Below, piece after piece: positions 988 through 9,980 of a stretch of DNA of 45,174 nt (positions are counted from its first letter, which is position 1; each line of letters begins with the position of its first letter). Under the pieces are notes generated by a model. It was not told where the DNA came from, searched no databases, and saw nothing but the letters and a program-made list of their open reading frames with translations. Origin of the DNA: a virus. Both the position numbers and the translations under genes were made by a program. Location: the IMG/VR virus record IMGVR_UViG_3300033155_000615, positions 1 to 45,174 of that record; one strand, given 5' to 3'.

Positions 988-2850
988 ATGCCAGGATCAC
1001 TTACTCCATTAATATTAATGGCAGGCGAGGGGCTGATAGATGATACAGCACTCGAAATTAATACGGATTCAAATATTAGTACATACACTAGTCAACCAAT
1101 TGTTGTTAATTACACAAATACAATAGCAGTCCTCCAATCTGACCTCGTTAGTGGAGGAAACCCAGACGGAATTTCACAGGCTAAAATTGATGCTGTTACA
1201 CATGCATTGGATAATACCGTACCGTTCTTAACTAACGTAACACCAACGGCACAAGCTGTTGATACAACAAACTTTGATACACTTCTTAATCAGCACCTAA
1301 CCAACATATTCCCAAGTAACGGTCAGTTTGCACTCTACTTAATGATTGCAATGAGTCAGATGCAAACTGCAAACAAGTATATCAATAGTGCTGTTAATGG
1401 TGCTAAATTAACCGAGCAAACTTTTACCTCAATGGACGCACTAATGTCAGGCAACATTACCGCGGTTAACACAGAGGTCCAGGCATGGGGGACGGAGTTA
1501 ATTAACTCTGGCAATTTGTTTAGCTTCACGAAATTGGGTGCTATCGGAACACCACAAGCTCTAGTAGAATCGTTAATGCGAGTAAACATGTTAACGTCTA
1601 TTGCTGATGAATTAGCATTACAGGGTATCGATGTATTTGACTTACAGAACGTAATTAGCGATGACCAGACGCGTGAATTAAAACCGGCTACACAGAAACG
1701 TTGTTATGATGCGTTCACGCAAGTTACCGGCAGTGGCCTAGAAGAAATTCTAGATGTGTTAGGATTTGTAACTCCGGGTATTGTAGTGTTATCGGATCTA
1801 CTAGACTTAACTAAAGTGTTTCCGGGCACTTTTCAAACGCTAACATCATTGAATAACGGTGTAGTGGAAGATATTTATATTGATACGAACGGCACCATTG
1901 CAGATTATGTTGCAGCCTTTACTACTCCTGCAACGGCATACATGCCAGACACCCAAGCAAAAGCTAACTACGCATTTTGTATTTCGCTAATGCAAATAAA
2001 AGGTATCGCAAAATCTACACCGCAGCTGATTGGTTCGGCAGCATCATCTATAGAAGGGAATGATGGGCTCGATGCGACTGGCGGGTTAACAGAACCACTA
2101 CCAACTGCAACCACTGATGCTATATTGGCAGAATTTGAAGGTGGCACTGGTCCTGATGGAACATTTTATCTTACTGATATTATTGGTGCCGCCGCAGGTT
2201 TGCCGCAGAGCACAAACACTGATATTATGAATACTGTTATTGATATGTTAGAAACTGTCAACGCACTTGATGACATAGAAGAAGTGCTTCTGATCATGCG
2301 TAACGTCGTTACCGGTGTATACGATACTGTAAATCCAGGAGAGGTTGATATTCCACCTGGGCTTCCGGGACAAGGTTTATGGCCGTCGAGAAACTCAGCA
2401 ATGAACATTCTGACACCTGAACTAAACACTGCCGCTCTTGCGCTCATGGCAGCATACCCAACTGAAACTGCTGATGCGACTACAGCATTTCTTAGTTCGA
2501 CTGATTCTGTTGTAAACGAAATTAAGCAATTGTGGGCAGCTGACATACAATTTGAAACTACTTATGTACCTGGCTTCGAAACAGGCGATCCGGCCTTGAA
2601 CGGGCTGCCAAAGGATGATAAGACTACTCGATCTTTTTCAGAAAACTTGCACTCATATGGTAAGAAAACAAACAAGGGTGATATCGCAGTAATACTTGAA
2701 GCAATGGCGACAGACACACAGGGTGGTAACGCTGTTACTGCTTCAATGCGCGAAGGCAGAAACCTATCAAAATTAGCAGAATCTGGAGTACAGTCGGACA
2801 ATCTGATTAACGATCAAAATTCACTAGTAGAACCAGGAAATATCTCCTAA
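988..2850 (+). CDS. large probable virion (baseplate-associated) protein
   Basis: A 620-residue protein I cannot assign to a named family. It is rich in Asn, Thr, Asp and Ala, with long alternating hydrophobic stretches and very few Cys, as is usual for virion proteins. Sequences such as LPGQGLWPSRNSAMNILTP near residue 455 and a C-terminal part rich in Asn and Ser are visible, but no enzymatic motif is. It starts two bases after the PAAR gene with AGGAG eight bases upstream, so the pair is probably co-translated. A baseplate or spike-associated role is inferred from context only. Confidence 0.65.
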   Translation: MPGSLTPLILMAGEGLIDDTALEINTDSNISTYTSQPIVVNYTNTIAVLQSDLVSGGNPDGISQAKIDAVTHALDNTVPFLTNVTPTAQAVDTTNFDTLLNQHLTNIFPSNGQFALYLMIAMSQMQTANKYINSAVNGAKLTEQTFTSMDALMSGNITAVNTEVQAWGTELINSGNLFSFTKLGAIGTPQALVESLMRVNMLTSIADELALQGIDVFDLQNVISDDQTRELKPATQKRCYDAFTQVTGSGLEEILDVLGFVTPGIVVLSDLLDLTKVFPGTFQTLTSLNNGVVEDIYIDTNGTIADYVAAFTTPATAYMPDTQAKANYAFCISLMQIKGIAKSTPQLIGSAASSIEGNDGLDATGGLTEPLPTATTDAILAEFEGGTGPDGTFYLTDIIGAAAGLPQSTNTDIMNTVIDMLETVNALDDIEEVLLIMRNVVTGVYDTVNPGEVDIPPGLPGQGLWPSRNSAMNILTPELNTAALALMAAYPTETADATTAFLSSTDSVVNEIKQLWAADIQFETTYVPGFETGDPALNGLPKDDKTTRSFSENLHSYGKKTNKGDIAVILEAMATDTQGGNAVTASMREGRNLSKLAESGVQSDNLINDQNSLVEPGNIS

Positions 2851-5785: not shown

Positions 5786-7705
5786 ATGTTAAATAAACAA
5801 CTTGGGTACATAGCCCTATTTTCTGCTCTATTTATTAGTAGCATTGCAATCTATTTTAGTGTCGCTGGACTAGCTGCGATATTCAGCGCGTATGCTATTT
5901 CAATCATTATAATGGGCACATCAATTGAGCTTGGTAAGTTAGTTGCAGTTGTTTGGTTACATTATAATTGGAAAGATCCAAACAAGGTACTGAAGAATGG
6001 ACTATCATTCTTTGTGATAGGCACCATGTTTATCACGTCCATGGGTATCTTTGGATACCTATCAAAGTCACATGTTGAACAGACAGCACAGTCGCAGGAA
6101 AGTGTAGCACAAGTTGGCCGCATTAACTCTGAGATAGCACGTAACAATGCTATCATCGCCCGCTCTGATCAAAAGATTACAAGCTATGAAAATAATGGCA
6201 GTGGTGTAGATGCAAGTCTTAATTCACAAATTGATAAAGAACAAAAGCGTATAGACTCAGCGTACGATAGAGTTAAACCAGTTATCCAAGTCCAGATAGA
6301 TATCATTGCTACAGATGAAACGAAAACAGCCAGTCGGAGTAAACCTTATACGTCTGAACTTGATGGGATTAACAAACAACTAGGAGACTTACAGGCAGCA
6401 CTCAGTGACAGGAAGATTAAGATAGCCCAGGGCATAGTTGGCACAAGGCCAGATGGTTCGTACAGAGAAAAGACCCAAGCAGCTATCAGAGATTTTCGTA
6501 CACGTAAAGAAACAAGACGCAACGAGCTACTACAGAAAATTGATAGCATTAGAGGAGTTCCTTCAGTAGCGGTAAAAGCAGCACAGCAAGAAATTAATCG
6601 CATACGCGCTTCTGTACAATCAGAGATTGACGAAAGTAATGCAACTATTAAAAGTTTACGGTCGCGTATGGGCAAGTCAAATGCTAACGATATTGAAACG
6701 TTAATTACAGTTGAGCGAGATAAGTCTAAGGTAGCAAACAATGAACTTGATACATTAACACAAGAGAAATATAAACTTGAAGCAAGTACTCGCAAGTTGG
6801 AAGCAGAGGTTGGCCCTATTAAATACATTGCAGAATTTGCATACGGTAGAAAAGCAGATGCTGACCTACTTGAGAAAGCAGTTCAGTGGCTTATCATTAT
6901 TATTATATTTGTGTTTGATCCGTTTGCTATATTCTTACTAATAGCAGCACAACACTCATTCGACAGGCACCGCGAAGAGAATCCAGTTCGTAAGAAGAGG
7001 GTACTTGGCAATCCAACGCCCGCTGAAGATGCAGCACCAAGAGAGTACGTTGAGCAACAATGGACAACAAACGATGAAGGTGTTGACAGACCTTTCTCAG
7101 CAGCCTTACGGGACCATGGAGGCTATCAACCCACACACGGTGAGTTAGATGATAACGACCCACCGCAGGAAGATGGTGATAGTGTTATACTCGACGAACT
7201 TGAATTTGAGGACGTTGCTGAAGGTATTGAAGAGTTTGATCTCGAAACCCAAACTGAAGAACCATGGAAAGACCTTAACGAGTTAAGTCAGATTGCAAAA
7301 GATATGAACCTTCCACCATATAGCGGCGCAGGCAAAATTGCAATGGCGAAGGTTGGCGAAGACTACATTAACTTTAACGGGAAGGTATATAGAACAGAAG
7401 CACTAACTCAAATGTTTCCAGGCTTAGGTTTTAATTTTAATAAAACGGTTAAATCAGGAACAGAGTTCCCGCCACCTAATAGAGTTGGCATGATGTTCAT
7501 ACGTACTGATTTAGAACCAACGCAGTTGTATATTTTTAATGGCAACGATTGGGACAAAATTGATAAGAATATTTTAAACTTTGGCGCTTATAGTCACGAA
7601 TACACCAAAGCGTTAATTAAAAGGGTCGGCAATGGCGAGTATAATCCAGAGCTATTGAATGAAGCGGAGAAGAAGCATATCGAAGAACTGCTAAGTCGTG
7701 AGTAA
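5786..7705 (+). CDS. membrane protein with long coiled coil
   Basis: A 639-residue protein with three hydrophobic segments at about residues 7-27, 29-50 and 77-97, a long charged helical region at about 105-345 with heptad-like Glu/Lys/Arg/Gln content, and a fourth hydrophobic segment at about 368-392 (LIIIIIFVFDPFAIFLLIAA). An acidic cytosolic or periplasmic tail follows, ending in a globular region with an FNGxxWD-type turn near 595. No enzymatic motif is visible. A late box lies six bases upstream, so it is probably made late and could act in the host membrane or, less likely, be part of the particle. I know of no function for this architecture. Confidence 0.7.
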   Translation: MLNKQLGYIALFSALFISSIAIYFSVAGLAAIFSAYAISIIIMGTSIELGKLVAVVWLHYNWKDPNKVLKNGLSFFVIGTMFITSMGIFGYLSKSHVEQTAQSQESVAQVGRINSEIARNNAIIARSDQKITSYENNGSGVDASLNSQIDKEQKRIDSAYDRVKPVIQVQIDIIATDETKTASRSKPYTSELDGINKQLGDLQAALSDRKIKIAQGIVGTRPDGSYREKTQAAIRDFRTRKETRRNELLQKIDSIRGVPSVAVKAAQQEINRIRASVQSEIDESNATIKSLRSRMGKSNANDIETLITVERDKSKVANNELDTLTQEKYKLEASTRKLEAEVGPIKYIAEFAYGRKADADLLEKAVQWLIIIIIFVFDPFAIFLLIAAQHSFDRHREENPVRKKRVLGNPTPAEDAAPREYVEQQWTTNDEGVDRPFSAALRDHGGYQPTHGELDDNDPPQEDGDSVILDELEFEDVAEGIEEFDLETQTEEPWKDLNELSQIAKDMNLPPYSGAGKIAMAKVGEDYINFNGKVYRTEALTQMFPGLGFNFNKTVKSGTEFPPPNRVGMMFIRTDLEPTQLYIFNGNDWDKIDKNILNFGAYSHEYTKALIKRVGNGEYNPELLNEAEKKHIEELLSRE

Positions 7706-7717
7706 AGAGGTAGTACA

Positions 7718-8815
7718 ATGACTGAGACTTGTAATTTTTGTAACAAAGGACAACACCAGGTTAAGAAGTTGGTATTAGGTGAGACCGCAGGTATATGTGA
7801 TGTGTGCATTAAATTATGCGCCAAGATACTCAATAGCGAAGATATTGATGATACTGAAGAATTAGAAAAGCTCGACGATATCAATCCGATGGAATTGAAA
7901 GATTATCTAGACATGTATGTAACAAGTCAAGATTCTGCGAAGATTGTACTAAGTGTAGCAGTTGCAAATCATGTTAAACGTCTTAATTCAAAGGACACGA
8001 TTTTAGATAAGAGTAATGTAATGTTGCTAGGACCTACAGGATCTGGTAAGACGTTACTTGCAAAAACAATAGCAGGATACTTAGACGTACCTTTTGTAAT
8101 AGCAGATGCAACCACATTAACTGAATCAGGTTATGTAGGTGAAGATGTCGATTCGATATTAATTAAGCTGTTAAATGCAGCAGGTGGTAATGTTGCTGAA
8201 GCCGAGCGCGGTATTATCTTTATTGATGAAATCGACAAGATTGCTAAGAAGGGCCAGTCTGGAGTTAATGGTAAGGAACCAGGCGGCGAAGGTGTACAGC
8301 AAGCACTCTTAAAATTAGTCGAAGGTACAGTGTTTACAGTTGAAACAAGCCGCAGAGAAGAAACCACAGAAGAAATTGATACAAGTAATATATTGTTTAT
8401 CGCTAGTGGTGCATTTGTAGGGTTGGATAAGATTAAAAAGAGAAAGCAGCAACCAAGTCAAATTGGGTTTACTGCTGATGTAGATAACAGGTACATCAAA
8501 GATGCAGAATTTACTGACCTTATTGAGTTTGGTTTAATTCCTGAGTTTGTTAGCAGATTCCCTGTTATTGCAGAAGTACAAGAGTTAACACAAGATGATA
8601 TGCTTAGTGTGTTAATGGAAGTAGAAAATAATTTAAGGCAAGTTGTAAATATTGCTATTGGCAAGAAGACAGGAGCTCGTAGCCTACGCTCAATAATGGA
8701 GAAGGCTTTATTGCCACACATGTTTAATATTAATCAGTACACGTCAGATAACATAAATAAGGTGAGGATTACAAAGTCATTAGTTAATCACCCAACAGAG
8801 GTAAAGAAGAAATAA
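7718..8815 (+). CDS. clpX: ClpX, AAA+ unfoldase of the Clp protease
   Basis: A 365-residue ClpX (E. coli, 424). The N-terminal zinc-binding domain has C5, C8, C27 and C30 with normal spacing. The AAA+ module has Walker A GPTGSGKT (105-112), pore-1 loop GYVG (138-141), Walker B IIFIDEID (166-173), arginine finger R280 and sensor-2 R321 in KTGARSLRS. The ClpP-docking IGF tripeptide is at 249-251, so it should dock a ClpP ring; this phage has its own clpP at 35328. Compared with E. coli ClpX from memory, the RKH loop that binds ssrA-type tags is replaced by SRRE near 211-214, and about 20-25 residues of the small AAA+ subdomain before KTGAR are missing. It unfolds substrates with ATP in the cytoplasm. 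AGAGG seven bases upstream fixes the start. The bS21 gene follows without a gap. Confidence 0.93.
   Translation: MTETCNFCNKGQHQVKKLVLGETAGICDVCIKLCAKILNSEDIDDTEELEKLDDINPMELKDYLDMYVTSQDSAKIVLSVAVANHVKRLNSKDTILDKSNVMLLGPTGSGKTLLAKTIAGYLDVPFVIADATTLTESGYVGEDVDSILIKLLNAAGGNVAEAERGIIFIDEIDKIAKKGQSGVNGKEPGGEGVQQALLKLVEGTVFTVETSRREETTEEIDTSNILFIASGAFVGLDKIKKRKQQPSQIGFTADVDNRYIKDAEFTDLIEFGLIPEFVSRFPVIAEVQELTQDDMLSVLMEVENNLRQVVNIAIGKKTGARSLRSIMEKALLPHMFNINQYTSDNINKVRITKSLVNHPTEVKKK
8753..8759 (+). promoter_or_regulatory. possible late promoter box inside the end of clpX
   Basis: ACATAAATAA lies in the last codons of clpX, 56 bases before the bS21 gene. It could drive bS21 late, but the match lies in coding AT-rich sequence and may be chance. 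Confidence 0.25.
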
Positions 8816-9028
8816 ATGCCATCAGTAAGAGTATATCAGGGCCAGTTTGATAAAGCCCTGCGAAAATTTAAGAAACAAGTATCCAACGCAGGCACCCTAG
8901 AAGAAGTCCGCAGGCGCCAGCATTACGAAAAGCCATCATCAAAGCGTCAACGCATGGCAGGCGCAGCTAAAGCACGTCATCGTAAAAAACTCCGCGAAGA
9001 AGATATCCACCGCCCACGTAAATATTGA
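8816..9028 (+). CDS. rpsU: ribosomal protein bS21 homologue
   Basis: A 70-residue, strongly basic protein that matches bS21 along its whole length: an N-terminal strand with VRVYQGQFDKALRKFKK, the EVRRRQHYEKPSSKRQR centre corresponding to bacterial EVRRREFYEKPTTERKR, and an Arg/Lys-rich helical end with RHRKKLREE and a final Arg-Lys-Tyr. bS21 is a small-subunit protein near the anti-Shine-Dalgarno region of 16S rRNA and helps initiation. bS21 is among the ribosomal proteins known from phages, including a marine pelagiphage. The phage copy could replace the host protein and bias ribosomes to phage mRNA (inference). It starts directly after the clpX stop (TAAATG). Confidence 0.93.
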   Translation: MPSVRVYQGQFDKALRKFKKQVSNAGTLEEVRRRQHYEKPSSKRQRMAGAAKARHRKKLREEDIHRPRKY

Positions 9029-9042
9029 TCTCACCGTTTAAC

Positions 9043-9071
9043 TTGTGAAAATAATAGTTCATTAGTATAAT
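9043..9071 (+). promoter_or_regulatory. sigma70-like promoter of hsp20
   Basis: TTGTGA (9043-9048), a 17-base spacer and TATAAT (9066-9071). A start near 9078 would give a leader of about 74 bases containing the stem-loops at 9089-9144. Confidence 0.65.
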
Positions 9072-9077
9072 ATACGC

Positions 9078-9084
9078 ATAAATA
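9078..9084 (+). promoter_or_regulatory. T4-type late promoter box (ATAAATA)
   Basis: GCATAAATAAAG lies just after the host-type -10 box of hsp20, so the gene may have both a host-type and a late start, the late one giving a leader of about 60 bases. Confidence 0.45.
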
Positions 9085-9088
9085 AAGT

Positions 9089-9144
9089 TATAAGATGCTG
9101 CATAAGGCGGGTCTTATATTTTGATCTTGCTTTAGATAAGGAGA
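9089..9144 (+). promoter_or_regulatory. ROSE-like RNA thermometer in the hsp20 leader
   Basis: Two stem-loops can be drawn. The first pairs TATAAGA (9089-9095) with TCTTATA (9112-9118). The second, next to the ATG, pairs TCTTGCT (9125-9131) with AGGAGA (9139-9144) over a seven-base loop: U-A, C-G, U-A, U-G, one unpaired G at 9129, then C-G and U-A. It covers the ribosome-binding site AAGGAG at 9138-9143. The UUGCU strand opposite AGGA with one unpaired G is the defining feature of ROSE elements, which melt on warming and are typical of hsp20 genes in alpha- and gammaproteobacteria. The leader length also fits. Folding was done by eye only. Confidence 0.6.
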
Positions 9145-9151
9145 ACATATC

Positions 9152-9601
9152 ATGCAAAACAAACACCTCACCACTATAAATCTAGAACCATTCTTGCGTA
9201 ACGCAATTGGCGTTCGTGAATTTATGAACACAATGCAATCCCGCATTGAACACACAAATAACGGAAATTATCCTCCGTACAACGTTATTGCAATAGACGA
9301 CAATCATTACCGTATTGAAATTGCAATCGCAGGCTTTGACAAAGAAGAAATAAGCGTAGTAGTTGAGAATGCCCAGCTTAGTATTTGCGGGTTCCAGGAA
9401 ACTATTACCGATGTAGGCGAAGAAATACCAAATCCAACTTATTTGCATCAAGGTATTAGTGCTCGTTCATTCGAGCGTAATTTTGCGTTAGCAGACCACG
9501 TCGAAGTAACTGGTGCAACCGTAAACAGCGGTATACTTAAAGTTGAACTAGAACGTAATGTTCCGGAAAGTTTAAAGCCGAAAACAATAAAAGTTAAGTA
9601 A
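9152..9601 (+). CDS. hsp20: small heat-shock protein, Hsp20/IbpA family
   Basis: A 149-residue alpha-crystallin chaperone. The YPPYNVI start of the domain, the HYRIEIAIAGFDKEEI strand pair, ISARSFERNFALADHVEV, and the closing GILKVELER strand are all standard IbpA-type sequence; a hydrophobic C-terminal tail follows. It holds unfolding proteins in the cytoplasm for later refolding. Hsp20 is frequent in marine T4-like phages, where it may protect or assemble virion proteins. The leader carries a host-type promoter, a late box and a ROSE-like stem that would mask AAGGAG (9138-9143). It lies beside clpX, bS21 and clpS, forming a protein-homeostasis cluster. Confidence 0.93.
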   Translation: MQNKHLTTINLEPFLRNAIGVREFMNTMQSRIEHTNNGNYPPYNVIAIDDNHYRIEIAIAGFDKEEISVVVENAQLSICGFQETITDVGEEIPNPTYLHQGISARSFERNFALADHVEVTGATVNSGILKVELERNVPESLKPKTIKVK

Positions 9602-9609
9602 ATTAACCG

Positions 9610-9652
9610 TTTAGTATTGTACACGGTTATAAGACCGTGTACACTTACTAAA
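9610..9652 (+). repeat. long perfect-stem hairpin between hsp20 and clpS
   Basis: TTTAGTA (9610-9616) pairs with TACTAAA (9646-9652), and TGTACACGGT (9618-9627) pairs with ACCGTGTACA (9634-9643) around the loop TATAAG. Only one base on one side and two on the other are unpaired. No T-run follows, so this is not a classic terminator; it could be an RNA processing or stability element, or a protein site on DNA. Confidence 0.75.
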
Positions 9653-9674
9653 TACTTATATGAAGGATAAAAAC

Positions 9675-9980
9675 ATGTCAACAAAAACAGAAGTCGCAGT
9701 TAAAACAAGATTAGATCTTAAAGAACCACCTATGTTTAAGGTAGTTTATGTTAATGATAATAAGACCAGTATGCAGTTCGTTATTGATAGTCTTGTTGAA
9801 CACTTCAGCTTTGCAATAGATACCGCCGAGAGAATAGCAAACACTGTACACACAGATGGCGCGGCAGTTGCAGCGATTTTACCGTTTGAAGTAGCTGAGC
9901 AGAAGGGCATTGAAGTTACAGTAGATGCACGTAAGCAGGGCTACCCACTACAAATTCGTATTGAAAAAGAAAAAGACTAA
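9675..9980 (+). CDS. clpS: ClpS, N-degron adaptor of the Clp protease
   Basis: A 101-residue ClpS. The core MFKVVYVNDNKTSMQFVIDSL corresponds to E. coli [21 protein letters not shown], with the Asn-Asp that hold the alpha-amino group of the substrate; the pocket His is in TVHTDGAA, and a FEVAEQKG segment and a hydrophobic last strand follow. One pocket-side Asp of the E. coli NDD is Asn here. ClpS delivers proteins with bulky N-terminal residues to Clp unfoldases, classically ClpA rather than ClpX. I prefer the ATG at 9675, six bases after GAAGGAT, over the upstream one at 9660, which would place the ribosome site inside the gene. It ends four bases inside the convergent neighbour. Confidence 0.9.
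   Translation: MSTKTEVAVKTRLDLKEPPMFKVVYVNDNKTSMQFVIDSLVEHFSFAIDTAERIANTVHTDGAAVAAILPFEVAEQKGIEVTVDARKQGYPLQIRIEKEKD

Follow-up and report, generated by a model that had tools for sequence, protein, structure and literature searches.

The closest described relative of the element reported here is the short ROSE-like thermometer of Pseudomonas ibpA (ROSE_3, RF02523; PMC3669281), a leader of about 60 nt with two hairpins and a small heat-shock protein (sHsp) gene downstream. Its hairpin I has a bulged-G YGCC/GGG core, and in its hairpin II the sequence U(U/C)GCU pairs with the Shine-Dalgarno (SD) sequence. In Pseudomonas ROSE elements of this architecture hairpin II melts, and the leaders confer temperature control (PMC3669281). 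The phage element is alike in all of these features of layout but is viral, has shorter and A/U-richer stems, scores below the Rfam gathering level, probably has a late promoter upstream, and is also found ahead of dnaK. The ROSE leaders of Escherichia coli ibpA and ibpB are similar as well, with a CUCGCU..AGGAG hairpin and an ACGCGCC..GGGUGUU hairpin. The ibpB leader (L459) gave a weak match to R1, a covariance model built from phage leaders, and the ibpA leader differs from the phage element in having additional hairpins. In the lambda cIII RNA thermometer a phage RNA fold also controls ribosome access by temperature (PMC4166951), but through two alternative conformations, with the opposite temperature response and in an unrelated sequence and gene. 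The Synechocystis hsp17 thermometer is likewise an sHsp leader under temperature control, in a cyanobacterium, but it is a single 46-nt hairpin (PMC4166951) and not the ROSE layout of cyanophages. The hsp20 gene is a core gene of T4-like cyanophages, and its role, heat protection or capsid scaffolding, is debated (PMC7674155). In the open-licence full-text literature, no description of the element was found for ROSE or RNA thermometers in combination with phage, cyanophage or phage Hsp20, and two papers on cyanophage sHsps mention neither the leader nor thermometers.

The window analysed here is a whole 45,174-base virus record from IMG/VR (IMGVR_UViG_3300033155_000615). Its ClpX, S21, Hsp20 and ClpS genes (7718-9980) run in the same direction and form a small phage proteostasis/translation cluster. 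Hsp20 and ClpS are also encoded near each other in Sinorhizobium phage Phosso. The features of the cluster and of the hsp20 leader are the following.

7718-8815, + strand: ClpX-like gene, with zf-C4_ClpX and AAA_2 matches; upstream neighbour of hsp20
8816-9028, + strand: ribosomal protein S21 homologue (PF01165, E 6.8e-16); upstream neighbour of hsp20
9078-9084, + strand: ATAAATA, a T4-type late-promoter-like box read from the sequence, 11 nt from the hairpin I core
9089-9118, + strand: hairpin I, the ROSE_3 consensus hairpin, present in the minimum-free-energy (MFE) structure at all temperatures used; across phages, the covariation of stem pairs 1-5 greatly exceeds that in shuffles
9089-9183, + strand: exact 95-nt identity with a related phage (L001), running through the element and into hsp20 as far as codon 10-11
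9125-9132, + strand: anti-SD strand UCUUGCUU, with bulged G9129 and the ROSE motif UUGCU (from sequence, ROSE_3, R1 and covariation)
9138-9144, + strand: SD strand AAGGAGA, partner of 9125-9132 in hairpin II (from sequence, ROSE_3, R1 and covariation)
9152-9601, + strand: hsp20, the regulated gene, 149 aa (Hsp20 PF00011, E 7.7e-17)
9660-9980, + strand: ClpS homologue (PF02617, E 2.3e-19); downstream neighbour of hsp20

The outer stem of hairpin I (UAUAAGA/UCUUAUA) encloses the core U-G-C-U / G-G-G, in which G9097 is bulged and the pairs are U9096.G9111, C9098-G9110 and U9099.G9109; above the core lie GC/GC and then the loop AUAAG. In hairpin II, the outer pairs U9125-A9144, C9126-G9143, U9127-A9142 and U9128.G9141 are followed by the inner pairs C9130-G9140, U9131-A9139 and U9132-A9138 and a loop at 9133-9137. 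The original prediction had proposed that UCUUGCU (9125-9131) pairs with AGGAGA (9139-9144) around one unpaired G and that a second stem lies upstream. That pairing is present in the bases, and the upstream stem is real, since 9089-9118 forms in the MFE structure throughout the temperatures tried. The features of ROSE-like thermometers found in the leader include G9129 as the sole unpaired base in the hairpin II stem, U(U/C)GCU facing the SD in the 3'-proximal hairpin (CUUGCUU 9126-9132 / AAGGAG 9138-9143) and a further 5' hairpin (hairpin I). The location is the leader of a small heat-shock gene, with hsp20 beginning 8 nt past the SD strand.

The SD-closing hairpin of the window is supported by sequence comparison and not by the energy model, because RNAfold favours another pairing of 9127-9157. 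In the nearest-neighbour model this alternative fold, in which the SD lies largely within a loop and the AUG is partially paired, is preferred by 4.5 kcal/mol at 10 °C and by 2.2 kcal/mol at 45 °C, and from 4 to 55 °C the window SD is predicted to be mostly unpaired. Nearest-neighbour folding was given little weight because E. coli ibpA is a proven thermometer, yet the same model barely melts its SD over the range 10-55 °C. Predicted SD accessibility differed little between phage leaders and shuffled upstream sequence. Taken in isolation, hairpin II of the window has, with nearest-neighbour parameters, a dG37 of about -1.2 kcal/mol and a two-state Tm of about 46 °C, which is also the median for phages; for the isolated E. 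coli ibpA hairpin the values are -4.1 kcal/mol and 68 °C. The absence of the SD hairpin from the window's own MFE structure speaks for a chance pairing in an A/U-rich leader that has no functional structure, a reading to be judged against the comparative results.

A permissive Rfam scan of 8900-9300 gave a full-length match to ROSE_3 (RF02523) at 9089-9157, with 25.1 bits and an E value of 0.0037; the other three matches listed had E values of 3.9-5.3. The score is lower than the gathering level of 43 bits, and the site is therefore no called member of ROSE_3 as the family is now modelled. A gathering-level Rfam scan of the entire window gave no match. When 17 other phage loci (65 kb) were scanned permissively, seven matches were obtained at E <=5, five of them to ROSE_3, and all five lay exactly on leaders already flagged by the SD motif. 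Sub-gathering ROSE_3 scores were found for hsp20 leaders of unrelated phages, namely Melnitz-3 (34.1 bits), C48C1 (26.8 bits) and three IMG/VR contigs. The proposed match to a ROSE covariance model thus held as to place, being full-length at exactly the right position and recurring in several unrelated phages, and fell short as to the gathering score. A loose first-pass genome search with RF02523 missed the window site yet matched all 14 control genomes, and is uninformative for ROSE_3.

The model R1 was built from 13 hsp20 leaders of other phages, with the window phage excluded. Its sole significant match in the 45 kb was at 9090-9145 (24.8 bits, E 2e-5), and the next-best match in the window had an E value of 0.73. 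R1 sites were present in 19 out of 20 whole phage genomes or records, almost always as a single site corresponding to the hsp20 leader. A second match in one of them (G008, L480) lacks the ROSE motif at that place and was taken as probable chance. Apart from the Rfam score threshold, each structural feature tested places the window leader among the ROSE-type elements.

Hsp20 was detected by tblastn in 508 phage records. Nearly all of the leaders read, from Kyanoviridae cyanophages, pelagiphages, methylophages and the rhizobial jumbo phage Phosso, share a common layout, in the order hairpin core (U/C)GCC-loop-GGG, A/U-rich spacer, C-U-Y-G-C-U, short loop, AGGAG and AUG. For the counts that follow, leaders were picked by Hsp20 protein only. 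The strict motif YTYGCT ahead of the SD was present in 100/139 leaders and in 3/517 controls. A structure-based detector that accepted any outer pairs found the bulged-G SD hairpin in 150 of 156 distinct phage hsp20 leaders, compared with three of 412 controls, taken from the remaining SD-preceded ORFs of those contigs. Under a stricter stem test both hairpins were found in 127 of the 156 leaders and in none of the 412 controls, and the hairpin I core motif was present in 149 of the 156. An RNA-only pattern scan was also run on 2.9 million viral contigs, and an Hsp20 ORF lay directly downstream at 72 of the 81 places read; among the nine remaining sites, three were at a contig end or had a very short frame near one, and two preceded dnaK. 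A chaperone leader switch had been expected to be unusual for a phage, an expectation that these counts reverse, as a ROSE-type leader is the rule for phage hsp20 (150/156). By itself the window copy adds one member; what is new is the class as a whole, which is spread across phages and reaches dnaK as well. Phages appear to carry a bacterial temperature/stress switch on their own chaperones. The conserved leader indicates how cyanophage hsp20 is controlled and makes the question of its role testable by temperature, and it bears on the response of phages to warming water.

The RNA-only pattern was also found directly upstream of hsp20 in 30/80 matches from a genome collection, in SAR11, SAR86 and other marine bacteria. 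These leaders are alike in pattern but cellular, and could be donors to or recipients from phages. Eight alphaproteobacterial plasmid Hsp20 starts matched by the 121-nt leader (blast, E 0.09) were treated as chance, because the four that were opened were copies of one mobile hsp20 cluster and matched the SD-to-start region only. The Hsp20 of 'Campylobacter phage A11a', which matches the E. coli IbpA query at 100% identity, was judged to be host contamination and was kept solely as an E. coli control. The records MG065691 and MG065686 (Campylobacter phages A11a and A18a), with their IbpA-identical Hsp20, look contaminated by E. coli chromosome.

MAFFT alignments of leaders with mixed loop lengths misplaced the SD and were rejected; for this reason pairs were counted on a motif-anchored and on a model-fitted alignment. 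In the former, anchored on the core motifs alone, the outer stem of hairpin I showed four or five pair types per position, with pairing at position 2 in 137/149 leaders (shuffle mean 72.6) and at position 4 in 130/149 (66.3). The model-fitted alignment (89 matches) leans toward its model, unlike the motif-anchored count, and gave 92.7% paired cells against 49-58% when slid, and 214 double-changed cells against 15-43 when slid, with none of 500 shuffles as high. Individual replacements could be followed in both hairpins. In one cyanophage group an SD pair changes from C-G to G-C (CUYGCUU/AAGGAG to GUCGCUU/AAGGAC), and in freshwater cyanophages (AGACGCU...AGGAGGUCU) the outer pairs are replaced wholesale (AGAC/GUCU). 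Changes in the hairpin I core are paired too, for example GCC/GGG to GCU/AGG. The compensatory changes that had been named as support are abundant in related phages in both hairpins, and together with the covariance-model matches they uphold the ROSE-like identity of the leader. The bulged G is invariant in most leaders and is replaced in a pelagiphage subgroup (CUGUCU). In pelagiphage relatives L036-L043 a variant SD hairpin, AACUGUCU...AGGAGGUU, stands in place of the CUYGCU motif. One module, in which YGCY faces RGG and a G is bulged, recurs in both hairpins. Against a chance pairing stand the match to an independent model, the control rate of 3/412, the covariation and the genomic specificity; for the window that reading is hardly credible, and for the phage family these comparisons already refute it.

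The late-promoter-like box recurs in the phage set. Of 143 phage hsp20 leaders, 70 have NTAAATA no more than 35 nt ahead of the hairpin I core (shuffled mean 7.6, maximum 15), and the spacing of the motif to the core was always 8-11 nt. In the window as a whole there was no enrichment of TATAAATA. The ATAAATA at 9078-9084 may therefore be read, from its position and sequence, as a candidate late promoter from which transcription would begin at roughly the element's first base.

The reading that we favour, with a probability of about 0.72, is that 9089-9151 is the 5' leader of the hsp20 mRNA and a short two-hairpin ROSE-type translational control element that is opened by warming. With the phage late promoter upstream, the mRNA would probably begin at hairpin I or immediately ahead of it, and the stable hairpin I would set up hairpin II, in which, as the covariation shows, U(U/C)GCU holds the SD through a marginal, bulged-G pairing. 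Warming, and possibly also the loss of a bound Hsp20 repressor, would then open hairpin II and allow ribosomes to make the chaperone, as in proven ROSE elements. Heat or proteotoxic stress in the infected cell would turn on the synthesis of Hsp20, which would otherwise be held down. The temperature response of the window leader is proposed by analogy with the ROSE family.

SD hairpins that tune expression are common, and hairpin II is only marginally stable, as might be expected of a hairpin that senses nothing and simply keeps translation low or postpones Hsp20 production in infection. Such a hairpin has no need to keep one motif, yet U(U/C)GCU, the bulged G and the hairpin I core are retained in phages that infect cyanobacteria, SAR11, methylotrophs and rhizobia, and it is chaperone genes in particular that carry them. 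We regard this non-sensing role as improbable.

The E. coli IbpA protein represses its own translation via the ROSE leader, for which it needs R93 and, at position 34, an aromatic residue (PMC10474464). The phage leader might in the same way be mainly an operator for autorepression, with free Hsp20 binding the two bulged-G hairpins and blocking translation. Clients released in infection would titrate Hsp20, so that misfolding would be sensed more than temperature; this could coexist with a thermometer. Among 164 phage Hsp20s, the equivalent of R93 is R in 154 and K in 10, and the equivalent of Y34 is Y in 150 and F in 14; by alignment, the window Hsp20 has equivalents of both Y34 and R93. The hairpin I core (YGCC/GGG, with its bulged G) is fixed within a freely varying stem, which suggests recognition through a protein or tertiary contact, and the YGCY/RGG module common to the two hairpins points the same way. 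However, sHsps of the proteobacterial type generally have R93 and Y34, whose retention may reflect chaperone structure. Moreover, R93K abolishes repression (PMC10474464), yet 10 phage proteins have K, and K98 is not retained as a basic residue in phages. As the main function of the leader, autorepression is possible but not favoured; we infer that it may be a serious companion mechanism to the thermometer.

The 95-nt identity was assessed in a comparison of two phage lineages (L001-L003 look like one phage). In the 3 kb compared with L001, the next longest exact run is 26 nt. DNA identity is 76% for ClpX, 70% for S21 and 84% for ClpS, and 41% just upstream of the element, and the two Hsp20 proteins are 66% identical. 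At 9152-9183 the hsp20 sequence is identical to that of L001 at the DNA level, third positions included. The coding start of hsp20 may belong to the RNA element, or the identity may mark recombination. That the leader and the start of the gene were recently exchanged, rather than held by constraint, has somewhat less than an even chance: the identity has sharp ends and extends into the coding region, but it begins exactly at the ROSE_3 boundary (9089). Such an exchange would concern the history of this copy and not its ROSE identity.

The two RNA-only sites before DnaK are on contigs with phage genes, read by eye as ribonucleotide reductase, DNA ligase, HNH endonuclease and a relative of the membrane protein encoded at 5786-7705 of the window. 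In 60 distinct viral-contig dnaK leaders fetched by protein, the SD hairpin was found in 51 (52/61 by motif count) and both hairpins by the strict rule in 25. Covariation of hairpin I was weaker in these leaders, partly owing to the narrow set. The hsp20 gene was about 2 kb from dnaK in 13 out of 14 such records, and in six dnaK records R1 found two elements, one ahead of each gene, in dnaK-hsp20 tandems. A T4-type major capsid gene was above the cut-off in four of 16 records searched, two of them among the dnaK records. In a broader scheme, phages would run their own chaperone regulon, with ROSE elements on hsp20 and dnaK behind late promoters, read by temperature and by phage Hsp20, and folding stress in virion assembly would switch on both chaperones; we consider this scheme doubtful.

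Within the dnaK set (L481-L560; G011, G013, G015, G016, G022, G024), some leaders have a third hairpin of the GGGCAUGGUGCCC type between the two. The same RNA pattern is ahead of dnaK on L351, a 3 kb contig of an alphaproteobacterial MAG; this contig, binned as bacterial, may be phage or may carry a true bacterial ROSE-dnaK. R1 also matched L255 (~2303-2358, minus strand, 27.6 bits) and L297 (12915-12965, 30.6 bits). The gene after these matches encodes a protein of 71-72 aa that starts M..YADMAIDAIQ/VQ and has no Pfam match, and is a possible third target of the ROSE-like element.
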